DNA of 22,475 nt from a virus, in IMG/VR virus record IMGVR_UViG_3300013286_000064, positions 1-22,475 of that record, one strand, 5' to 3'. Of the stretch, positions 1,141-12,106 are shown one piece after another. Below the pieces are notes generated by a model. The model had not been told where the DNA came from. It worked only from the letters and a program-made list of their open reading frames with translations, and made no database searches. Each line of letters begins with the position of its first letter. Within the stretch, counting starts at the first letter, position 1. The translations under genes and the position numbers were made by a program.

Positions 1141-1741
1141 TTAATACCGTGAAACTAGAAATAAAGTTTCTTCCATTTATACTTTGCAATGCAAGATCTA
1201 CAGTCTTAACTAAATCATCTACTGTGATAATACTATTAGTTTTAAGTATTTGCTTGTACAATTCTGCACCGTTCTGATCTGCTGTGTCGTATGGATTATA
1301 AAAATTAGTTTGCACTACTCCAGGCATAACAACAATGCTTTTGCATTTACTGCCACTGTGATTAATTTCCCAGCTGGTCTTATTTATAGTGTACTTTTCC
1401 TCTCCGTATAGGGTCAACCAAGGAAAACTGTTAGGGATATCTGCTAGAGGTTCTGCGGCCATACTGCTGGTATTAATAATAAAATGATTGCTATGCCAAT
1501 GTTGCTGTTGCCATAATTTCATTAGCTCAACTTGTGCGTAATGATGGTAAGCATTATTAATAAACAAATCACAATCTTTAGTGTCCTCTACAATAAGGTC
1601 TTGATTAATTTTATTGCTAATATCAAACCCAGTATCCTTGCTGAAGCCTTTAACATTACAACCTTTATTTGTAAAATAATCAAATAGACCTTTACCTATG
1701 CCGCTGGTATGTCCTGTGATAGCAACTGACTTAAACTCCAT
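1130..1741 (-). CDS. Short-chain dehydrogenase/reductase (SDR)
   Basis: A 203-aa NAD(P)-dependent SDR-family protein. The dinucleotide motif T9-G-H-T-S-G-I-G16 follows the first strand. N62-N63-A64 matches the NNAG structural motif. The catalytic Ser is S92 or S93 in INTSSMAAE. Two overlapping YxxxK motifs follow, Y112-K116 and Y117-K121, so the catalytic Tyr/Lys pair is ambiguous. PG at about 140 follows as in classical SDRs. It is shorter than the usual 250 aa, lacking part of the C-terminal substrate loop. The start is ATG at 1741 with GGAG 6 bases upstream, inside the end of the preceding gene (11-base overlap). Likely oxidises or reduces an alcohol/ketone on the substrate that the neighbouring oxygenases act on (inference). 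Confidence 0.85.
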   Translation of the reverse strand: MEFKSVAITGHTSGIGKGLFDYFTNKGCNVKGFSKDTGFDISNKINQDLIVEDTKDCDLFINNAYHHYAQVELMKLWQQQHWHSNHFIINTSSMAAEPLADIPNSFPWLTLYGEEKYTINKTSWEINHSGSKCKSIVVMPGVVQTNFYNPYDTADQNGAELYKQILKTNSIITVDDLVKTVDLALQSINGRNFISSFTVLNGY

Positions 1742-3062
1742 TCCAGTCTCCGTTCATATGCCAAGTTGGACGTTTAATATCATCAGATATATTTCCTGTC
1801 ATTATTAAAGTAGCATCAGGTACATGTTTCTTTAGCTTGTCTAGTAACAATCGTTCGTTGTATATCCTGTGCTTCAATGGAACAAATGGGGCGACTGGGT
1901 CATAATTAAAAATATGACTAAGGTGTATGATTGTACTAGGTACATTGTCTACCCATGTACTCACAGGCAATAGTGTGTTAAGCACAAGATCCTGGTGATG
2001 AAATTCAAATTTAACTTTGCTGATCATATCAGTCCACATACGAGCATTTACGGTTTGTTCGCTACCGGTCATAGTGATCATATGATCACCGCCCGAGCTT
2101 AGAAACTCCTTACGACTATTCACATAGTCTTGAACAAACTCTATATAGTTTTGTTTTCCATCCCAATCTAGGGTTATTCGAAACATGCACTCAAGAGCAA
2201 ACAAATTATAGTCAACAAATTTAACTGTAGTATTTTCATCGTATCCGTAGTACAGCAAGTACTCATACCATTGTAAACCGCTGGCTTGTATAACCAATTG
2301 CTTCACAGGTCCTTTGAAGTCTACAGCAACAAACTGTTCTGTGTTGTAGGGGTAAAACAATGCTTGGCCTGCTACACTATACTTTCCGTATAGATACGAG
2401 CTCTTAGGAATAAAAGCCGGCTCATAGTTAGGATAGTAGTAGATCTTGTTGTTTCTAAATTGTTCCGGAAACACTTCCACAAGTTCGCCTGCGGCTAACG
2501 CTACACTGATAATGTTCCAACCGTGCCATTTGTGCTTGTACTCTTTTAACCTATGACCAGGCTTGACCCACACAGGGGTGTAGTCATCATGCACATTGTC
2601 CACACTACGCATTGGTTCTATTTGAAAATGTGGTGAGTAGTAGGCAAACTCTCCCACTACGGGAGAATCTAACTCTGTATACTTGTTAAGATTGATAATG
2701 TAGCATTGGTCGTGTAGTTCGTAGTAACCGTCATCTCTGTCTGGGATATGTCCCATCAAGAAAAACTTATAACCGCCATATACTAACTTTTCAACTTCGT
2801 TAAAGAACTCATCACCGTTGACAAACTCTGTGCCTGTGCTTAGTACTACTGCGTGTGTATAATCTTTAGCGGCTTCTTGAAGCATTAGATCTTCGTCTAG
2901 GCCTTGTATAACATTGAATCCGCTATCAATAATTTTACCTAGGACAAAGTCGCTGAGGTTTTTCATTAGTTCAGCAGTCCAAGCAGTTTGGCAGGAATGA
3001 ATCCTATCTAGGAAGATAAAGACAATGTCGTCAGATCCCGCAGGTGTGGTAAATTTAAGCAT
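1731..3062 (-). CDS. Large unrecognised protein (443 aa), possibly two domains
   Basis: I do not recognise this gene by name. The N-terminal half (to about residue 150) looks like an alpha/beta domain, with VVLSTGTEF near residue 73-81 and FLMGHIPDRDDGYYELHDQ near 100-118. The middle has VIQASGLQWYEYLLYYGY followed by VKFVDYN (about 260-290), which loosely recalls a Rossmann-type methyltransferase core. This is too weak to assign. No signal peptide or membrane segment is seen. The start is ATG at 3062. No good Shine-Dalgarno precedes it, but a possible promoter does (TTGCGA, 16 bases, TATAAT on the minus strand at about 3069-3096). It overlaps its neighbours by 8 and 11 bases and lies between oxygenases and an SDR, so a role in the same pathway is likely. 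Confidence 0.6.
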   Translation of the reverse strand: MLKFTTPAGSDDIVFIFLDRIHSCQTAWTAELMKNLSDFVLGKIIDSGFNVIQGLDEDLMLQEAAKDYTHAVVLSTGTEFVNGDEFFNEVEKLVYGGYKFFLMGHIPDRDDGYYELHDQCYIINLNKYTELDSPVVGEFAYYSPHFQIEPMRSVDNVHDDYTPVWVKPGHRLKEYKHKWHGWNIISVALAAGELVEVFPEQFRNNKIYYYPNYEPAFIPKSSYLYGKYSVAGQALFYPYNTEQFVAVDFKGPVKQLVIQASGLQWYEYLLYYGYDENTTVKFVDYNLFALECMFRITLDWDGKQNYIEFVQDYVNSRKEFLSSGGDHMITMTGSEQTVNARMWTDMISKVKFEFHHQDLVLNTLLPVSTWVDNVPSTIIHLSHIFNYDPVAPFVPLKHRIYNERLLLDKLKKHVPDATLIMTGNISDDIKRPTWHMNGDWNGV

Positions 3063-3699
3063 ACTGTTTATTATAACATCTTACGAGCATTTCGCAAAAC
3101 TCTTTCTTTCTATTACCTAAAATGATATTAGCAATCATATGTACTCTAGGTTTGGCGCTTCTATTAAAAACAGCATGATCTTTGCTTATGTTTAACATAA
3201 ACATTCTACCTTCACGCCACGGAACACGCTTATCTTCAATTTCCATGTCGCAAAACATAGGATGGATAATTGCAAGATTAATTGGCAATATAGAATCTAA
3301 AGGATCAATGCCATCGGGTAGTTGTCCATCATTGTGCCAATCTATATGCCCGCCCGGAGCAAGACGCATGAAGCGTATTCTAGTATATCGCTCTGCAGGA
3401 AATTGGTGTTTCCAAAAGTCTGTAATTACTGGACATCTATATGATAATTCTGTATATTGATATGGTGCATGATATTCATCGTGTCCGTAGTTGTCTGCTG
3501 TGTGTGTTCTGTCTATACCTAACCCGTGTAGACAACAGCTTGCCCATCCATCACTGGAGCTATCCCTATATTCTTGATAGAACGGTTCTGCTTCTAACGC
3601 CTGTTGCTTCCAAACATCAACATTGAACGGAATGTCTAATTCAAGCCAAGGAATAGATGTGTTCTTTAGTATTGTACGGGCTTGATTTACGATATCCAT
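3055..3699 (-). CDS. Aspartyl/asparaginyl beta-hydroxylase-like 2OG-Fe(II) oxygenase
   Basis: A 214-aa protein with the core of the aspartyl/asparaginyl beta-hydroxylase fold (PF05118-like). RIRFMRLAPGG (107-117) is followed by H118 and W121-H122-N-D124. It then has WREGRMFMLN (161-170), with DHAVFN at 174-179 and R185-V-H187. By family pattern, H122 (with D124) and H175 bind Fe(II) and R185 binds the 2-oxoglutarate carboxylate; this is inferred. The start is ATG at 3699, with GAGG about 11 bases upstream. It overlaps the next oxygenase upstream by 13 bases and the unknown 443-aa gene by 8. The substrate could be a protein side chain or a small molecule. Confidence 0.8.
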   Translation of the reverse strand: MDIVNQARTILKNTSIPWLELDIPFNVDVWKQQALEAEPFYQEYRDSSSDGWASCCLHGLGIDRTHTADNYGHDEYHAPYQYTELSYRCPVITDFWKHQFPAERYTRIRFMRLAPGGHIDWHNDGQLPDGIDPLDSILPINLAIIHPMFCDMEIEDKRVPWREGRMFMLNISKDHAVFNRSAKPRVHMIANIILGNRKKEFCEMLVRCYNKQYA

Positions 3700-4244
3700 T
3701 TTTTAAATACCTCTAATGCTTGTTCCATAGTAAGACCATCTTCTGGTTTAGATTCTAAACTAATATCACAACTCACACACCATCTAGGACCTTGAGTATG
3801 GTTTGTAATGTTGTGCGGCACACCTGTTTGCACAATGCTAGGAAATTTAATACTATGAGAGTAAACATGAGTTACCTGTTGTGGCTTATAAAGAGTATAC
3901 GGAGTTCCTGCTTGTGTTTCTACTTGTTCAGTTATATCAATGTTATCATTAAGTTTATACCAATGCATTAGACTGCCAGCGCCGCCAAATATAAAATTAA
4001 TACATGCACGATCACCTATTGCATATCCATCTATATGTATACCACATTGATCTCCGGGTGGAGTATAGAAAATCAACGGCGGGTATGTCATTACTAAATT
4101 ATGATTAGATAGCCACTGTGTAAATTCGTTAGAAACATTTTTAGGATCAGCAAACCATATTTCAGGTTCTACGATTGTTTGATTCAATATAGAATAGTCT
4201 GTAAGAGGACCAAAAGGAACTGTTAGATCAACAGCATAGATCAT
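3687..4244 (-). CDS. Cupin-type 2OG-Fe(II) oxygenase-like protein
   Basis: A 185-aa protein with a readable facial triad: PPGDQCGIHID puts H70 and D72 in an HxD motif after a Pro-Gly turn. ACINFIFGGAGS (80-91) is the following strand pair, and QTGVPHNITN gives a distal H144. R154 in GPRWCVS is the likely 2OG-binding Arg. The order and spacing (HxD, about 72 residues, H, 10 residues, R) fit double-stranded beta-helix dioxygenases. The assignment is by motif only and no exact family is recognised. The start is ATG at 4244, overlapping the upstream stop as ATGA. Confidence 0.72.
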   Translation of the reverse strand: MIYAVDLTVPFGPLTDYSILNQTIVEPEIWFADPKNVSNEFTQWLSNHNLVMTYPPLIFYTPPGDQCGIHIDGYAIGDRACINFIFGGAGSLMHWYKLNDNIDITEQVETQAGTPYTLYKPQQVTHVYSHSIKFPSIVQTGVPHNITNHTQGPRWCVSCDISLESKPEDGLTMEQALEVFKKWIS

Positions 4245-4774
4245 TTTGCATAGCCCAAAAAGTTAAACAAGAACTTTGGCTCTAATCCCATATTCATTCC
4301 GCCATGCCACTGTTGCCAATCGTCCCATTCAAATACATCGCCCTGTTCTCTATCGTAGCAAACTTCGCCTTCTAACAGAAATACCTGACCAAACGATGGT
4401 TTGTTGATATGGCAAGTAAAGCGTTTGATTATTCCTTTTTCTAACATCTCTGTTTCGTTGTCAGTAATATCGTAATGCCAGGGTACAACGAATCCCGGAC
4501 GAACGCTTGTGATCCAGCAGCCAATAGTAACCACGTTAGCAAACGTAGCAAATTTATCAATGATATCCTGTGGGCAATCATAATCAAACCAACCAACTGC
4601 TTTATTATCTTCGTAGCCTGCACGTTGCCATAGTTTACGCAATGCCGCAACCTTAGGGTTATGATGTATATCATCAGTCTGATCGTTGCCCCTAAAGCGA
4701 CCTTCTTGTGTACTAAGTTGTTCAATTAATGCAGGCCAATTGATCAAGCTAGATGAGTTTCCTATAAATTTCAT
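4241..4774 (-). CDS. 2OG-Fe(II) oxygenase-like protein, tandem copy A
   Basis: A 177-aa protein that is clearly paralogous to the gene just upstream (4771-5313). Both begin with a short N-terminal Ile-Gly segment and then LWQ-x-AGY near residue 50. Both carry S-x-RPG followed by H-x-D (here H100-Y-D102), RFT-x-H (118-122), a beta pair ending in VF, and W-x-x-WHGG with H157. The C-terminus is LFNFLGYAK. H100, D102 and H157 are the presumed iron ligands. The pattern resembles aspartyl/asparaginyl hydroxylase-like phage proteins, but no named family is certain. ATGA overlaps join it to the neighbours on both sides, which suggests coupled translation. Confidence 0.75.
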   Translation of the reverse strand: MKFIGNSSSLINWPALIEQLSTQEGRFRGNDQTDDIHHNPKVAALRKLWQRAGYEDNKAVGWFDYDCPQDIIDKFATFANVVTIGCWITSVRPGFVVPWHYDITDNETEMLEKGIIKRFTCHINKPSFGQVFLLEGEVCYDREQGDVFEWDDWQQWHGGMNMGLEPKFLFNFLGYAK

Positions 4775-5313
4775 ATCTTAACTCCTATGAAGTTAAACAG
4801 CCATTTCTTCTTAAAGCCACAGTTGCCGCCTGCATGCCAAGCTCTATGATTAGACCACTGATGTGTATATCCAGATTCTTGATTTGAAAACACTTGATTG
4901 TCAACAATAAACACATGCCCTGGTTCTGATATTCCCATGTGAGTAGTAAATCTAGTAAGCTCGCCTAGCTTAAGATGTTCTTCTTCAGCGTCATCAATAT
5001 CCCAATGGTACGGCGCATATCGTCCCGGACGTATAGAACTAACCCATGCACGTATGCATTTGTATCCTAGCCAACTACTATAATCTTCTATGATCTTAGC
5101 ATCAAAATGTTTTCCTGGATAGTAATTGATCCATTCTACTGTACCTGCTTTATCGTATCCGGCATGTTGCCATAACTGTATGATCTCATCAAATCTACCA
5201 TCTGTGTTTTGATAAAAATCAACACCATAAGTTCTAACATCGCCCTGTTTCAGGTCTAGTGTCTGTATAAGTTCATACCAGTTAATATTAGATCTGCCTA
5301 TCAATTTAGTCAT
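4771..5313 (-). CDS. 2OG-Fe(II) oxygenase-like protein, tandem copy B
   Basis: A 180-aa paralogue of the gene at 4241-4774. Shared landmarks are LWQHAGYD (47-54), VSSIRPGRYAPYH (91-103), the HxD motif H103-W-D105, RFTTH (121-125), the strand GHVFIVDN (132-139) and W159-H160-A-G-G, ending LFNFIG. H103, D105 and H160 probably bind iron. The two copies are similar in motif order and length but clearly diverged in sequence, so they probably act on different positions or substrates (inference). The start is ATG at 5313 and overlaps the preceding gene by 8 bases. The TGA stop overlaps the next start. Confidence 0.75.
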   Translation of the reverse strand: MTKLIGRSNINWYELIQTLDLKQGDVRTYGVDFYQNTDGRFDEIIQLWQHAGYDKAGTVEWINYYPGKHFDAKIIEDYSSWLGYKCIRAWVSSIRPGRYAPYHWDIDDAEEEHLKLGELTRFTTHMGISEPGHVFIVDNQVFSNQESGYTHQWSNHRAWHAGGNCGFKKKWLFNFIGVKI

Positions 5314-6016
5314 CTATTGCAAAGCCTTCTGGTAGTTTGCCACGCAACGAATCAATTGCATCTGGTTTTAATTTAAGAGAAAAGCCATTATTAGTTACAG
5401 TAAACTTAGACATCATACGTAATTTATCAAGTGCATTTAACACAGGACTTAGTACAGCATCAAACCTGTAACGAGATTCTTCTTTGTCGTCTAATGTCGA
5501 TCTAACTGAGACGGGTATAAAGGTGCCGTCGTCTCCATCCTTTAATAACATTCTTACTACTAATTGTGCTCGTACTCCCCTGCCAAAGTTAGCGGCAGTA
5601 TGTTTATTCCTTGCCTGCATAAGATACCAATGTCCATCTTTTACTAAATCATGTAATTCGTTCTTTTCTAAATCAATAATATAGCTGTCAGTTCCTGATA
5701 TGTTAAGATGATACCTGTCATCTATATCAGCGTGTGACTGGTAGCATTTACCCTCATCTAACAAAATAATACGTGCTTCGCCGTGCGGTACAGTCAAGGA
5801 CTTCAGTATGTGATACCATATGGTATTTTTGTATTCTTCCTTAATAGTCCAAGGATCGTAAAAGAAATCGCCAGTAGGTTCATTAATGGCCAAACGGAAC
5901 TCGTCAGATGGTAAATTGTTTTTAGCAATCTGTATACTTTCTATATCAACTGAGAAGTTAGTTTTGGCGAGCATGATATATTTAACACCATTAAATGCAC
6001 ACATAAATATTTCCAT
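5306..6016 (-). CDS. 2OG-Fe(II) oxygenase-like protein (aspartyl hydroxylase-like)
   Basis: A 236-aa protein and the first gene of the left minus-strand run. ARIILLDEGKCYQSH leads to the HxD motif H95-A-D97, followed by RYHLNISG. The distal region GHWYLMQARNKHTAANF contains H139, and R149 in GVRAQLVVR is the likely 2OG-binding Arg. This order matches the aspartyl/asparaginyl hydroxylase fold. A C-terminal extension of about 75 residues, KFTVTNNGFSLKLKP onward, has no recognised motif. Start choice is open. ATG 6016 has no clear ribosome site; in-frame ATG codons follow at residues 5 and 15, and the residue-5 codon has GGA about 7 bases upstream. Expressed from the divergent region at 6017-6057. 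Confidence 0.72.
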   Translation of the reverse strand: MEIFMCAFNGVKYIMLAKTNFSVDIESIQIAKNNLPSDEFRLAINEPTGDFFYDPWTIKEEYKNTIWYHILKSLTVPHGEARIILLDEGKCYQSHADIDDRYHLNISGTDSYIIDLEKNELHDLVKDGHWYLMQARNKHTAANFGRGVRAQLVVRMLLKDGDDGTFIPVSVRSTLDDKEESRYRFDAVLSPVLNALDKLRMMSKFTVTNNGFSLKLKPDAIDSLRGKLPEGFAIDD

Positions 6017-6057: not shown

Positions 6058-7311
6058 ATGCCACATAAATCAACAACGTTCTGCATGCATCCGTTTACAG
6101 GATTGGCAAGCCGCGAAGACGGAGCAGTTAAAGTGTGTTGCCGTAGCCGCCCTATTGGCAATATACAAGAAGAAACTATAGAACAAATTTGGAATAACGA
6201 TACAATGCAACGTATCCGATATCAAGTACTAAACAGCGAGCGTCCTCCAGAATGTGCGCCCTGCTTTAACCTAGAAGACCAGGGAGTAGAAAGTCTGCGT
6301 CAAAGACACATCAAAGGTGAGATACCTGAAGCACGGATTAATTTGTATCCTAATACACCTTTACAAGAAATAATGCCGTTTGAATTTCCTACTATGGAAA
6401 TTAAACTCAATAATCTTTGTAATCTTAAATGCCGTATGTGCAATCCCACAGACAGCACAAGCTGGAATGATTGGAGTGAGGTTGAGGAATTTTATGACAA
6501 AGAAAAGAACTATATTGCAGGCAATGTTCGCAAACTCAATTTAGTTAGAAAACCATACTTGGACAAGTTTGAGGATAATCCTAATTGGTGGGATAGCTTT
6601 AAAAAACTATTACCTTACTTCCGCCGCGTAGAGTTTGCTGGCGGTGAGCCCTTAATGGATCCACAACACTTTCAAATACTAGATATGTTAAAGCCTTACG
6701 GGCAACAAATAGAAATCAAATATGCTACTAATGGCACAACATTAGGAATTACAAAAGGAAGAACTATACATGAATATTGGCCACATTTTAGATCAGTTGC
6801 CGTTAATGTCAGCATTGATGGCATTGGTGATGTTTACGAGTACATACGTGGTAACGCTAACTTCTCTGAGGTTGTGGAGAATGTTAAAACAATACAGGCG
6901 ATCCCAAACGTCAGCAGAGTTGTTGGAGCCGTTGCTGTCCAAGTAAGCAATGTACTAATATTAGATAAGATGATAGAATATTTCCTAGATGATCTAGGCA
7001 TTGTGTTTTATACCAATATGGTTAATTACCCTAACGTGCTATCTATACAAGTGCTACCTAACGAATTAAAGTCCATTGCGATTAAACGGCTCATTGCTGT
7101 CAAATTGCGTGTTCCGGAATTTAAACACGTTAAAGCCAACCCTATTTTATTAGACATTACCAACAAGCAGATCGACGGAGTGATTAACTTTATTACTTCA
7201 AAAAATACCACACATCTATGGAGCGAGTGTGTAGAGTTTAATCGTAGGTTAGATATAACTCGTAATCAAAGTTTTACAGATGTAACTCCAGAGTTTATAG
7301 ATTATAAATGA
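6058..7311 (+). CDS. Radical SAM protein with N-terminal Cys cluster (twitch-type)
   Basis: A 417-aa radical SAM enzyme. The radical SAM [4Fe-4S] motif is C121-N-L-K-C125-R-M-C128, and the SAM-contacting motif is AGGEP at 194-198. Unlike classical SPASM enzymes, the extra cluster ligands sit in front: C9 (FCMHPF), C27-C28 (VKVCC) and C66-A-P-C69, enough for an auxiliary [4Fe-4S] cluster. Proteins of this layout are usually called twitch-domain radical SAM proteins. The C-terminus R-N-Q-S-F-T-D-V-T-P-E-F matches a tail shared with the radical SAM genes at 9033 and 15771. The start is ATG at 6058 with GAG 7 bases upstream, and the stop overlaps the next start as ATGA. The substrate is unknown. 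Confidence 0.88.
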   Translation: MPHKSTTFCMHPFTGLASREDGAVKVCCRSRPIGNIQEETIEQIWNNDTMQRIRYQVLNSERPPECAPCFNLEDQGVESLRQRHIKGEIPEARINLYPNTPLQEIMPFEFPTMEIKLNNLCNLKCRMCNPTDSTSWNDWSEVEEFYDKEKNYIAGNVRKLNLVRKPYLDKFEDNPNWWDSFKKLLPYFRRVEFAGGEPLMDPQHFQILDMLKPYGQQIEIKYATNGTTLGITKGRTIHEYWPHFRSVAVNVSIDGIGDVYEYIRGNANFSEVVENVKTIQAIPNVSRVVGAVAVQVSNVLILDKMIEYFLDDLGIVFYTNMVNYPNVLSIQVLPNELKSIAIKRLIAVKLRVPEFKHVKANPILLDITNKQIDGVINFITSKNTTHLWSECVEFNRRLDITRNQSFTDVTPEFIDYK

Positions 7312-8162
7312 GACAGTTTCTACTTACACTCGGTGACAAACAATCTAAGACTATTGTGTTTGATATACTGTCAACATCTATTGCGAATCGGTGGGCGGAT
7401 GAAATTGCTAAAGGTTATCCGCTGTACGAACAAGATAGGTTTAAAGGTTGGCCAGAAAGTCCAAGGACAGAAGCATACTATTATTACCAATTAAAAGAGC
7501 AAGTATCTATAGTCAATAACTATCAAGCAAATTTAATTCCTAATATACTTCATATGTTTACGCAGGATACATTAAACGTATTGCATAAACACTTTGAGGA
7601 CTTGCGGGGATCTATTGATGCAGGCACTGAGTTTTACAACAATGCACCGGACTATGTGAAATCTGCTGTAGATAAATTTAATGTATTGATACACGAGCTA
7701 GAACATTACATGCGACATTTTGGATATCCAGAATTAGTCGGAACCTACAAGGATAGACCCAGGATTGAATTGTTGTCCGAGGACTACAAGCAGTTTACAT
7801 TTAAATGGAAATTTGGTTATATGTATATTAATTACTGCGAAGTAGGTAAACCTTTACTTGATGTGTTTAAGGACAATGATCATCTCGTAGGGCACGATAA
7901 CATACGCCCATTGACATATTATAGCGCAGACTTTACAATTAAGTTTGGCCCAGATACTACTGAAGAAGTTTACCAAAAACGGTTAACACAATTTAACGAA
8001 TGGTATGCAAAACAAAATTTTAACTTTGATCAGTTATCGTTGGGTATGATTCCTGTAGCAAAATTAAACTTAAAAGACAGTAACCTATTAGGAATATCAT
8101 CTGATGGTATAATATCATTGTTATCCCAATATCAGAATATCAAATCAACATGCTTAAAATAA
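7308..8162 (+). CDS. Unknown 284-aa protein between two radical SAM genes
   Basis: I do not recognise this family. It is soluble, aromatic-rich (YYYYQL at 57-62; FTFKWKFGYMYINYCEVGKPLL in the middle) and has no signal peptide. Residues 124-134 (FNVLIHELEHY) contain H129-E-L-E-H133, which formally matches the HExxH zinc-protease motif, but the helix looks like an ordinary amphipathic one and no third ligand is evident. The start overlaps the upstream stop as ATGA and the end overlaps the next radical SAM gene by 13 bases, so all three are probably translated together. It may be a substrate, scaffold or partner of the flanking radical SAM enzymes; this is inference from position only. Confidence 0.6.
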   Translation: MRQFLLTLGDKQSKTIVFDILSTSIANRWADEIAKGYPLYEQDRFKGWPESPRTEAYYYYQLKEQVSIVNNYQANLIPNILHMFTQDTLNVLHKHFEDLRGSIDAGTEFYNNAPDYVKSAVDKFNVLIHELEHYMRHFGYPELVGTYKDRPRIELLSEDYKQFTFKWKFGYMYINYCEVGKPLLDVFKDNDHLVGHDNIRPLTYYSADFTIKFGPDTTEEVYQKRLTQFNEWYAKQNFNFDQLSLGMIPVAKLNLKDSNLLGISSDGIISLLSQYQNIKSTCLK

Positions 8163-9070
8163 CGGGACGCTGGGGACACGAAAGTTCTATTAAAGTAGAA
8201 TGGAACCTTGGTAAACGCTGTAACTACGACTGTACATACTGTCCATCTGCCATACATGATAATACCAGCAAACATACCGATATAGAAATACTTAAAGATG
8301 TTGTAGACAAGTTAGTATCGTTAGGCAAACCAATACGTCTTAGTTTTACAGGCGGAGAGCCTACAGTACATCCTAAGTTTGAAGAACTAATCAACTATGC
8401 TAAACATGTTGGTATTCATTGGATCAGCGTGACTACCAATGGTACACGTAAACCCGAATGGTATGATAGACTACGTGTAGATCAATTTGTGTTTAGTGTG
8501 CATTTTGAGTACGACTATAAAAAAGTCATTCATACAATAACAAGCCTTAAGAATTTTAGCAAGACATCTATAGTTGTACAACTAATGGCTCATCATGATC
8601 ATATAGAAAATGTTAAAGATGTTGCAGAGTACTTAAAAATTATGGAATTTCCTTTTACTGTACGCAGAATACGTTGGACAGAAGGTGACCATAATATATT
8701 TGACGATATGCGATATCATCCTGATGATTTTAAATGGATGATTGAACAAGAAGCAACTGTTAAGACCAACGTGATCATTTGGTTAAATGACGATACTCAA
8801 ATACCAAAACATGCTAACGATGTAATTAAAGAGCATCTTAATCAATATAAGGGATGGTCGTGCAATGCAGGTATAGAAAGCCTAATGATTAATTGGGACG
8901 GAGAGGTACATCGGGCAACTTGTAGGGTTGGTGGAAGACTCGGAAATATATACAAGGGAACATTCGATGTGCCTAGTAAGCCTGTAGTTTGCGATCGTGA
9001 TTTCTGTACCTGCGCGGCTGACATTCCTTTAACTAAAACAAGTATTTTAACTCTGAAAACGTCTTCTTAA
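8150..9070 (+). CDS. Radical SAM protein with C-terminal SPASM-like domain
   Basis: A 306-aa protein. C24-N-Y-D-C28-T-Y-C31 is the radical SAM cluster motif, and T67-G-G-E-P71 is the SAM-binding motif. The C-terminal third has five cysteines in the order SCNAG, ATCRVG, PVVC and FCTC (about residues 240-292), with NWDGEV between the first two. This is the pattern of a SPASM or shortened twitch domain holding an auxiliary cluster. The start is ATG at 8150, 13 bases before the upstream stop. The stop TAA at 9068-9070 lies 38 bases inside the opposing gene. Likely acts with the other two plus-strand genes; substrate not visible. Confidence 0.87.
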   Translation: MLKITGRWGHESSIKVEWNLGKRCNYDCTYCPSAIHDNTSKHTDIEILKDVVDKLVSLGKPIRLSFTGGEPTVHPKFEELINYAKHVGIHWISVTTNGTRKPEWYDRLRVDQFVFSVHFEYDYKKVIHTITSLKNFSKTSIVVQLMAHHDHIENVKDVAEYLKIMEFPFTVRRIRWTEGDHNIFDDMRYHPDDFKWMIEQEATVKTNVIIWLNDDTQIPKHANDVIKEHLNQYKGWSCNAGIESLMINWDGEVHRATCRVGGRLGNIYKGTFDVPSKPVVCDRDFCTCAADIPLTKTSILTLKTSS

Positions 9071-10334
9071 AGTCTGTTCCGCGCTGTGTATCTGTAGTAG
9101 TTAGATAGTCTTCTAACATAGGCAATTTGTTCGTCCAATCTTCGGCCATCATATACTGCACTAGACCTTGCCAACGTTTAAATCCATATGGGTTTTGCAT
9201 AAACTCTGCATCAGTACTTCTCCTAGAACAAAAGTGCTCTACATTCTTTGCTACTTTTGCTTTTAGATGACTGGGCAACACTCTAATATTTAGATAGCTT
9301 GGCAAGTACACAAGATGTGTGCCAACAAGTCCTGCACCGTAAGGAGGCAAATTAATCTTTTTAAAGTTTCTGCTTTCTTTCCAATGTACTAACTCTGGAA
9401 TAGTAAGGACATTTAACAACTGAACAGCACATGCAATATTTACAGTTATGTTTTTAGGAGTATCATCTAGTCGAAGTAAGTTAGCGACTACGTTTTCCCA
9501 TTTGCTAGGGTAACGTATATAATCATTACGACTGCCTACTGCATCAACGCTGAAATTAAATTTAACTTCCTTAAAATGATTCCATAGTTCAAATAGCTTT
9601 TCTGGAAGCTCTAAGCCGTTGCTGTTATAGCGTAGTGTACATAACTTAGCCGCACCTGTTTCTACCATAAACTCTAGTATCTTGTAATGCTCGGGTATCA
9701 GTAAAGGTTCCCCTCCGGCAAAGTATAGCTCGCGGATATTATATGCTTGCAAGCGCATGTCACTTAGGAAGCTACCTTTCTTATACCATGTATAATCAAA
9801 GTCACTATTCCACTGCTGATCTTGTTTTAGTTCAATAGTCTTGTACTTGGGATACTGTAGCTTCCATTCTTTGATCCAACTACTACTGTCATGTGGACTG
9901 CACATGATACATTTAAGTTGACACAAATTACCTAGTCGTAAATCAAAGTATGGAATGTCAACAGGTAAGCTACCATCTTTGCCCGTAGCATCTATAATAG
10001 TTGTCATGTCTAAGCGTTCATTCCAAACTGCGGATTCCCATTGTCGCTTACTTACAATACCTTTAGATTCTTCTTCAAAGCATTTAGTACAGCTAGGTGG
10101 AACGTTGCCTTCGAGCATTTGGAGACGCACGGTTTTCATGTAATTACTGTTCCAAATTTCTGCAATAGAATGAGTTTGTAGATTCATTACTTGGCCGTTT
10201 TGTTTTACCAAGCCAACTTCTTTACTATCTTCATCGCCTGCTCCACTGGCATTGGCTGTACAGCACACCCGCACATCTCCGTTAGGGCGTGTTGCTAAGT
10301 GTATCCAGGGCAATGGGCAAAATGTTTTAGACAT
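9033..10334 (-). CDS. Radical SAM protein with N-terminal Cys cluster (twitch-type)
   Basis: A 433-aa protein from ATG 10334. An in-frame start at 10385 would add 17 residues and overlap the upstream gene by 59 bases, so I prefer the downstream one, where the family motif SKTFCPLPW begins at once. Auxiliary ligands are C6, C24-C25 and C82-T-K-C85. The radical SAM motif is C138-Q-L-K-C142-I-M-C145, and AGGEP is at 206-210. The tail R-G-T-D-F-K-K-T-F-S-E-L matches the C-terminal signature of the paralogues at 6058 and 15771. The last 38 bases overlap the convergent SPASM gene. Probable function: radical modification of an unknown substrate, perhaps a peptide or sugar. Confidence 0.87.
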   Translation of the reverse strand: MSKTFCPLPWIHLATRPNGDVRVCCTANASGAGDEDSKEVGLVKQNGQVMNLQTHSIAEIWNSNYMKTVRLQMLEGNVPPSCTKCFEEESKGIVSKRQWESAVWNERLDMTTIIDATGKDGSLPVDIPYFDLRLGNLCQLKCIMCSPHDSSSWIKEWKLQYPKYKTIELKQDQQWNSDFDYTWYKKGSFLSDMRLQAYNIRELYFAGGEPLLIPEHYKILEFMVETGAAKLCTLRYNSNGLELPEKLFELWNHFKEVKFNFSVDAVGSRNDYIRYPSKWENVVANLLRLDDTPKNITVNIACAVQLLNVLTIPELVHWKESRNFKKINLPPYGAGLVGTHLVYLPSYLNIRVLPSHLKAKVAKNVEHFCSRRSTDAEFMQNPYGFKRWQGLVQYMMAEDWTNKLPMLEDYLTTTDTQRGTDFKKTFSELKYLF

Positions 10335-11391
10335 CTTCTTTTTGATCCCTAGGCTGTGCAAATGATACTTTATTAGATCGGCCACATGTTCGTGAACAAG
10401 TAATTAATTTTTTAGTTGTCCAGTACTTAGTCCAGCAAGTTTGCCAAGGCTCTGAATCTATAATATCTTTAATAGAATTATCAACAGCATTAACATTACC
10501 TAACGTGTTCATTAGGCCTGCATACTCATTTCTAATTTCATATCTAACACTGGATAGCGGATTATCTTCTATATGGTTATAAGGAATACTAGATAACCAA
10601 CAGCAAGGGAATACATTTTTGTAAGCATCAATGTATAGCTCTCGTTCCTTTTGAGCATAGCAGTCTATTTCCATAGTATCCATAACTTGTTTGTAATTTT
10701 CTATTACCTTCTTGTCAATGAATACCATCTTATTATCACTAGAAGGTTCTAAATGATAAACAGTTTCTCCTTGCTTGTTTAGTACAGGGTATTGCGGATC
10801 CAGCAAGAAGCGAGAGCTATTCTTTACTGTAAAGGTAGTAAATCCTAAATCTTTAGACATTTGTCTTGCTTCTTCTACTTGATGTTCGTTATGCTTAAAT
10901 CGAATAAACACCCACTCGGCTTCTATACCTTCTTCAATTACAGCTTTGGCGTTACGTATAATAGTATCAAAGTCTGTTCCTATTCTATAGATACTATGTG
11001 TATCTGCTAATCCGTCTAGAGCAAATACTATTCCGTTCTTATCTGGCATTGCCTTAGCCAACTGTTTCCACCAACTAACAGATCTAGCACTACCGTTAGT
11101 GTGTATCCGCACAGGCATGCCGGGTGCAATTTCTTTAGCGTATTCGCACATCTTAATAAGATCATTATTAAGTATAGGATCACCAAAATTACCACAGAAG
11201 TAAAAACTTCTAATCTGCTGAAATACTTCAGCAGTCATTACAGCTTTAAAATCATCAATGGTCCACCCTGCAGATGAAATTAAAGGATTGTCTAATCCGC
11301 CGTGTATGTTTCGACTGCACATAGGACAACTGGCCTGGCAGTTGTTAGTGATCTCTAAATGTATTTGTTGTAACTCGTTAAACTTGAACAT
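10327..11391 (-). CDS. Radical SAM/SPASM protein with GDP-variant SAM motif
   Basis: A 354-aa protein from ATG 11391. The open frame extends to 11445, but this start gives a modest 14-base overlap with the upstream gene and begins MFKFNELQQIHLEITNNC, typical of the family. The cluster motif is C18-Q-A-S-C22-P-M-C25. The usual GGEP is replaced by G67-N-F-G-D-P72, a variant common in SPASM-type enzymes. The C-terminal region has cysteines at IDCYAQ, FPCCW, WQTCW and TCSRTC, consistent with a SPASM domain holding auxiliary clusters. It lies directly downstream of the QueC-like gene and overlaps the next radical SAM gene by 8 bases. Confidence 0.87.
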   Translation of the reverse strand: MFKFNELQQIHLEITNNCQASCPMCSRNIHGGLDNPLISSAGWTIDDFKAVMTAEVFQQIRSFYFCGNFGDPILNNDLIKMCEYAKEIAPGMPVRIHTNGSARSVSWWKQLAKAMPDKNGIVFALDGLADTHSIYRIGTDFDTIIRNAKAVIEEGIEAEWVFIRFKHNEHQVEEARQMSKDLGFTTFTVKNSSRFLLDPQYPVLNKQGETVYHLEPSSDNKMVFIDKKVIENYKQVMDTMEIDCYAQKERELYIDAYKNVFPCCWLSSIPYNHIEDNPLSSVRYEIRNEYAGLMNTLGNVNAVDNSIKDIIDSEPWQTCWTKYWTTKKLITCSRTCGRSNKVSFAQPRDQKEDV

Positions 11392-12106
11392 CAATAGCCC
11401 ATTGTCGTTCTTTGCACCAGAAGCACTCTTTACATAAAGGAACATATTGGCCCGGTGTATATGATTTATAATCTATATCCGCAAACTCGCCTTCGCAACT
11501 GCGTGTTATTTCAAACAGATCCGTTAGATCCATATCTCTATACTGTTTAATAACCCAAGACTTTTCAGTAAATCTAAAAGGATGTACAGCCCAGCAATCC
11601 ATATGTTTCATTAATACTAAATGCTTATTATCTTCTGTTAGATCTACATCTCTAGGACTCAGTCCTTTAAACTCTACATTTTTAGGATTACGAGTAACTG
11701 CATTGTAATATGCATCTATGTTATGATGATGACAGATAAACTCTGCATAGGCACGTTGCTGTATGTTATCCCCACTAACTTCTTTTCCATATTCATCTGT
11801 TAGGATACGTCCTTTATTGCCCCATTCAAGATCAGGTGCTATGAAATTAGTATGTCTTTGAAATCTTATATTAGGAAACTTTATAGTCAACCATTGTATA
11901 ACTCTATCTGCATCGTACTGTTGCCACGGGCGTGTCTTCCACATACGCACATGATTAATGATATATATTGTAGTATGATCTCCAATAAACGAGCATATAA
12001 GGTATGCAAGTAGAGCAGAGTCTGCTCCGCCACTAACGCTTATAGCAATGTTTTTCCATTTCTTATCAAATGGTATATTAACGGTATCTACATTATAGAA
12101 ATTCAT
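11378..12106 (-). CDS. QueC-like PP-loop ATPase
   Basis: A 242-aa N-type ATP pyrophosphatase. The PP-loop S25-G-G-A-D-S30 adenylates a carboxylate or similar group. Near the C-terminus C204, C225, C228 and C231 (LCKECFWCKER) resemble the zinc site of QueC, the 7-cyano-7-deazaguanine synthase. In QueC the first Cys is only about nine residues ahead of the CxxCxxC; here the gap is 20. Length is close to QueC. No QueD, QueE, FolE or transglycosylase gene is in the window, so a 7-deazaguanine role is unproven, and amide or nitrile formation on another substrate is possible. Overlaps: ATGA with the SGNH gene upstream, 14 bases with the radical SAM gene. Confidence 0.75.
   Translation of the reverse strand: MNFYNVDTVNIPFDKKWKNIAISVSGGADSALLAYLICSFIGDHTTIYIINHVRMWKTRPWQQYDADRVIQWLTIKFPNIRFQRHTNFIAPDLEWGNKGRILTDEYGKEVSGDNIQQRAYAEFICHHHNIDAYYNAVTRNPKNVEFKGLSPRDVDLTEDNKHLVLMKHMDCWAVHPFRFTEKSWVIKQYRDMDLTDLFEITRSCEGEFADIDYKSYTPGQYVPLCKECFWCKERQWAIDVQV

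Follow-up and report, generated by a model that had tools for sequence, protein, structure and literature searches.

The window analysed here is a virus record taken at its full length (IMGVR_UViG_3300013286_000064, positions 1 to 22,475; 22,475 bases). It contains three overlapping plus-strand genes, referred to below as RS1, MID and RS2, which lie among the following features.

1731-3062, minus strand: G443, a 443-aa protein of unassigned family, overlapping AspH by 8 bases; a homologue is fused to MID in bacterial loci L290 and L295
3055-3699, minus strand: AspH, an aspartyl/asparaginyl beta-hydroxylase (PF05118, E=2.2e-15); in L295 its homologue is joined to a MID-like domain
5306-6016, minus strand: 236-aa gene divergent from RS1, with a weak Asp_Arg_Hydrox match; a homologue is present in 116 of 134 RS1-RS2 loci
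6058-7311, plus strand: RS1, a twitch domain-containing radical SAM protein of 417 aa (N_Twi_rSAM, NF033640, 327 bits; Radical_SAM; invariant Cys)
6082-6264, plus strand: N-terminal SPASM/twitch domain of RS1, residues 9-69 (PF13186, E=4.6e-10)
7308-7311, plus strand: four-base ATGA start/stop overlap of RS1 with MID (sequence)
7308-8162, plus strand: MID, 284 aa, an undescribed family and optional cargo of the RS1-RS2 slot (no family match; distribution; modelled fold)
7470-7715, plus strand: inserted helices of MID, roughly residues 55-136, in which N90, H93, N125, H129 and E132 are invariant (secondary structure, invariant columns)
8150-8162, plus strand: 13-base overlap of MID with RS2, recurring in type-A relatives (sequence, locus comparison)
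8150-9070, plus strand: RS2, a radical SAM protein of 306 aa with CxxxCxxC and five invariant C-terminal Cys (Pfam, alignment)
9033-10385, minus strand: second N_Twi_rSAM, convergent to RS2 (NF033640, 413 bits)
10327-11445, minus strand: further radical SAM gene, rsP type (Pfam); homologues adjoin MID in Bdellovibrionia (L283/L291, L287/L293)
11378-12106, minus strand: PP-loop ATPase-like protein; in L002 the gene immediately upstream of RS1 encodes a homologue

The initial annotation described this unit as two radical SAM genes of different types joined to an unrecognised gene by ATGA and 13-base overlaps. Both overlaps were confirmed, and so was the difference in type. RS1 and RS2 score 41.1 and 63 bits against Pfam Radical_SAM (cut-off 29.5); the N_Twi_rSAM match of RS1 far exceeds the family cut-off of 170 bits and covers model positions 1-396 of 398, whereas RS2 fits no specific NCBIfam family. 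The assignment of a SPASM domain to RS2 has to be revised in part: the Pfam SPASM domain sits at the N-terminus of RS1, and RS2 has no Pfam SPASM match, but cysteines 238, 258, 281, 286 and 288 near the RS2 C-terminus are invariant in 135 of 135 aligned sequences. Because of this invariance, RS2 likely also bears a SPASM/twitch-like cluster at its C-terminus. Equally invariant among 135 sequences are C24, C28 and C31 of the RS2 CxxxCxxC motif and cysteines 9, 27, 28, 66, 69, 121, 125 and 128 of RS1. Judging by their dN/dS against the relative L002 (RS1 0.056, MID 0.076, RS2 0.098), all three are real genes under strong purifying selection.

Several other traits of the window are worth recording. 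Besides RS1, two other genes score above the curated N_Twi_rSAM cut-off, and one of them, convergent to RS2, shares with it a 38-base overlap of 3′ ends (9033-9070) that is also present in L002. On the minus strand, 3687-5313 holds a trio of adjacent genes for proteins of 177-185 aa, all lacking a Pfam match; a paralogue-like pair at 4241-4774 and 4771-5313 has numerous homologues among the fetched loci. For G443 a Pfam search gave no match, and sequence searches of the PDB with G443 and MID returned chance matches only. In fetched viral loci an Asp/Asn hydroxylase gene adjoins the G443 homologue in 24 of 36 cases.

The middle protein had been put forward as a candidate for a new family, and our searches bear this out: MID has no match in PHROGs, NCBIfam or Pfam (the last at E up to 1), and tblastn against isolated phages found none either. 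Viral MID proteins fall into types A and B, which are only about 18% identical, yet are homologous by profile comparison (hhalign 97.5%, E 7e-12). Across 70 viral sequences W29, N90, H93, N125, H129, E132, G180, K181, D191 and G246 are invariant, and all of these positions except K181 are kept in a 35-sequence set that includes three bacterial relatives. Two possible identities were considered and rejected. Residues 129-133 (HELEH) could be read as an HExxH metalloprotease motif, but relatives read HQLES, HKLES or HDLES, leaving only H129 and E132 invariant. The Pfam family MUG113 matches 12 of 70 members with a best E of 4.5e-4, which is too weak for family assignment.

Structure prediction of the 284-aa protein alone gave a barrel resembling that of cyclophilins, into which a helical hairpin is inserted. 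AlphaFold2 models of the two types are confident (pLDDT 93.5 and 89.3), the former having no disordered segment. With VIA-align, cyclophilin-fold chains rank first for both types, at Z 9.5 (135 residues, rmsd 3.2) and Z 8.9 (138 residues, rmsd 3.0); Foldseek alone gave no significant match for either model against the PDB. We infer from the models that the MID fold is a cyclophilin-like β-barrel. The invariant Asn, His and Glu residues lie on the two helices of the insert, spaced so as to occupy one face of each helix, and the hairpin they line is a putative active or binding site. Structural matches to MID include a protein of Agrobacterium phage Atu_ph07 (BFVD) and a MID-like fold within the 768-aa viral protein A0A6J5T9P3; a MID profile search of the Atu_ph07 genome found nothing. 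Since Cyclophil_like2 (PF18050) was not found in the Bdellovibrionia genome of L267, there is no sequence bridge there from MID to cyclophilin-like proteins.

The modelled fold bears on what MID might do. One reading would make it a cyclophilin-type helper that, as a prolyl isomerase or chaperone, offers a protein substrate to radical-SAM and 2OG enzymes. Such a role would agree with the recovery of the fold in two independent models and with the fusion of a MID-like domain to an Asp/Asn hydroxylase described below. However, no cyclophilin sequence family is among the matches listed for the 70 MID members (the first 25 of 56 Pfam families), and the invariant residues are concentrated in the inserted hairpin, not in the barrel, so that we regard this reading as rather unlikely. 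Radical SAM/SPASM enzymes often modify peptides, and the gene order recalls a substrate flanked by its maturases; MID might accordingly be the protein substrate of RS1 and RS2, in the style of a peptide precursor. A 284-aa protein modelled confidently throughout, free of disordered segments, with polar residues invariant across types and in bacteria, and found also without radical-SAM neighbours, hardly resembles a substrate of this kind. We therefore rejected the RiPP precursor reading, and consider a substrate role in general very improbable.

MID could also assist the radical-SAM enzymes as an iron-sulphur or electron-delivery protein. One MID gene lacking a radical-SAM neighbour (L180, 6001-7238) begins a pair in which an A-type Fe-S carrier gene (PF01521) follows 2 bases downstream, but this is a single case. 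Moreover, MID has no conserved set of cysteines, and the one cysteine invariant in type A is not shared by type B. An accessory of this sort thus seems extremely unlikely. In L180, MID also stands among genes sharing a common MRAKEF-like N-terminus.

The initial annotation took the tight linkage of the three genes as a sign of a complex or of a substrate-plus-enzymes arrangement. We assessed this with a census of 94 distinct RS1-RS2 pairs, for which only RS1 or RS2, and never MID, had served as the query. The slot between the two genes is empty in 60 pairs, RS1 and RS2 then usually overlapping by 8 bases; it holds MID in 24 (16 type A, 8 type B) and other cargo in 10. This other cargo includes an additional radical-SAM gene and, as read by eye, PP-loop, SGNH-hydrolase-like, sulfotransferase-like, 2OG-like and lipoprotein genes. 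When mapped onto a tree of 128 RS2 proteins, the slot switched between filled and empty at least 29 times; 14 changes of the empty state are required even if only well-supported branches are counted. The four slot states together need 42 changes, compared with a mean of 57.9 after shuffling; slot state is therefore clustered on the tree, yet quick to turn over. Individual comparisons reveal the same turnover at close range. On either side of the slot, over 1.9 kb upstream and about 6 kb downstream, L196 and L244 are 90% identical in DNA, but one slot contains type A and the other type B, and L050, which has MID, and L122, which is empty, have RS2 in common at 98% identity. The 13-base MID/RS2 overlap is found in most type-A relatives.

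These data demonstrate that the RS1-RS2 junction is an exchange slot, which may be empty or occupied by MID of either type or by another gene; its variation is cassette exchange and there is no fixed three-gene unit. The proposal of an obligate complex with RS1, MID and RS2 as its three subunits draws on the overlapping start and stop codons and on the RS1-MID-RS2 order of 57 of 71 MID genes. It does not withstand the absence of MID from so many homologous pairs, its replacement in others, and the differing slot contents beside near-identical RS2 genes. The obligate unit is refuted, and we give such a complex only a slight residual chance; an optional RS1-MID-RS2 complex is possible. The substrate-plus-enzymes version of a fixed unit likewise lacks support, as the middle gene is so often missing beside homologous radical SAM genes, an outcome that the initial annotation itself had named as refuting its reading.

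What remains true of the linkage is best seen from the side of MID. Loci were gathered with RS2, with RS1 and later with MID itself. Of the 71 distinct MID genes from viruses, 57 sit precisely between RS1 and RS2, and 69 have one or more same-strand radical-SAM genes as direct neighbours; the sample leans towards radical-SAM adjacency inasmuch as part of it entered through the RS1 or RS2 searches. The two exceptions are L180 and L186. The RS1-MID-RS2 order also prevails in loci found by MID patterns alone (L161-L265). Because viral islands are rich in radical-SAM genes, this exact order is stronger evidence than adjacency to any radical-SAM gene. The claim of tight linkage thus stands for MID, but not for RS1-RS2 pairs, most of which do without it: the dependence is one-way. 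MID presence did not correlate with AspH or G443 in the fetched flanks of viral loci (Fisher p 0.33 and 0.25), nor significantly with PP-loop or methyltransferase genes in viral loci. Some arrangements differ. In L187, L199 and L221 the order is N_Twi_rSAM, a 218-aa gene, an RS2-like radical SAM gene and then MID, and the type-B MID locus L248 (4474-6644) includes an amidinotransferase-like gene, recognised by eye and having no Pfam match, together with a class-III aminotransferase gene.

Within one Bdellovibrionia class, 12 of 143 genomes also carry distant MID genes; in one of the 12 (G071) the gene is a short fragment with stops. N_Twi_rSAM is present in 11 of the 12 MID-positive genomes, compared with 46 of all 143 (p=1.4e-5); at five places MID is less than 4 kb from an N_Twi_rSAM gene, where about 0.2 would be expected. 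Several chromosomal MID genes have no radical-SAM neighbour. Taken together, the viral and bacterial data establish MID as a selected family that in viruses occurs almost only beside radical-SAM genes and has chromosomal relatives in some Bdellovibrionia. They also help to judge whether MID only hitchhikes, settling in the slot because it is a safe place to land, with no connection to radical-SAM chemistry. Other genes land in the slot too and some MID genes are located away from radical-SAM genes, both in keeping with hitchhiking. On the other hand, MID is much commoner in the slot than any other cargo, and its proximity to N_Twi_rSAM in Bdellovibrionia is far above chance, which makes mere hitchhiking unlikely. 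Two related genomes, G001 (L267; contig C1, about 745-775 kb) and G097 (L276; contig C192), have about 20 N_Twi_rSAM genes each, most of them clustered within about 30 kb.

Two of the bacterial loci contain fusions. In L290, an AspH gene overlaps the gene of an 817-aa protein in which a G443 homologue (E 2.6e-47) is fused to MID (E 1e-34). In L295, a MID-like domain (a weak match of about 30 bits) shares a single ORF with AspH (E 2e-32) and a part resembling G443.

Relatives of the window locate the locus within viral genomes. The T4-type capsid protein Gp23 is encoded on 7 of 15 long contigs carrying an RS1-RS2 locus, and the data as a whole show that T4-like myoviruses conserve RS1 and RS2 as a radical-SAM pair with translational overlap. 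On two of these contigs, G010 and G013, the island has tail-fibre or virion-structural genes on one side and the gene of an Mtd_N tropism-type protein on the other; a nucleotide-sugar epimerase is encoded on one of them as well. A hypervariable host-recognition cluster has been described in pelagimyophages, and for one pair of these phages that study notes, as the sole difference between clusters, added radical-SAM gene cassettes (PMC7029224). The island of the window may belong to such a hypervariable host-recognition cluster of T4-like viruses; this placement follows from the relatives, as the window fragment itself has no structural gene.

With a probability of roughly one half, we propose that MID is an optional component of a radical-SAM/2OG pathway, either as a tailoring enzyme or as a partner presenting the substrate; this pathway would modify a virion protein or host polymer and be diversified by cassette exchange. 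The RS1-RS2 pair would probably perform the core radical chemistry. MID would add or direct an optional step, perhaps together with oxygenases of the Asp/Asn-hydroxylase type. The target, relevant to host recognition, might be a protein of the virion, for instance a tail fibre, or a polymer on the host surface, and gain, loss or swap of MID would alter the final product, as may be expected of a locus in a hypervariable host-recognition cluster. All chemical steps of this pathway are inferred. A more specific version would have MID found a new enzyme family, in which a cyclophilin-like scaffold carries a catalytic, perhaps metal-binding, site in the hairpin, works in a radical-SAM and Asp/Asn-hydroxylase pathway and is swapped to vary the decoration of fibres or the host surface; this we consider conceivable but doubtful.

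The collagen prolyl 3-hydroxylase complex P3H1/CRTAP/PPIB resembles one part of this scheme: cyclophilin B works in it alongside a 2OG-Fe(II) hydroxylase. Purely by analogy, the fusion of a MID-like domain with AspH may represent a similar pairing, although the collagen complex uses another hydroxylase family and has no radical SAM enzyme. The barrel arrangement in the models of both MID types matches cyclophilins and cyclophilin-like folds, including the Pictet-Spenglerase KslB, which suggests that a related fold is able to carry other chemistry. Unlike cyclophilins, MID has no sequence match to them and has a large helical insert bearing invariant residues. Our literature search found no report of a cyclophilin-like fold with radical SAM enzymes, nor a paper on a Pictet-Spenglerase link.

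The genomic setting most resembles the pelagimyophage radical-SAM cassettes (PMC7029224). Those phages, too, are T4-like aquatic myoviruses, their hypervariable region includes tail fibres, radical-SAM cassettes are gained or lost between near relatives, and they carry an Asp/Asn beta-hydroxylase. In contrast, the accessible part of that paper does not name the RS1-RS2 slot, the middle protein family, its fold or the fusions. N_Twi_rSAM, to which RS1 belongs but RS2 and MID do not, is a broad subfamily without assigned function. That T4-like aquatic viruses have a hypervariable region rich in radical-SAM genes is already known, whereas the MID family, the cyclophilin-like model of its fold, the exchange slot between RS1 and RS2 and the fusions in bacteria appear to be new relative to the libraries and literature searched. 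The host-recognition regions of these viruses are crowded with radical-SAM genes; here, a conserved enzyme pair and a quickly exchanged third component make up a two- or three-gene system that can be expressed, natural controls with and without MID are available, and the bacterial fusions point to likely partners.
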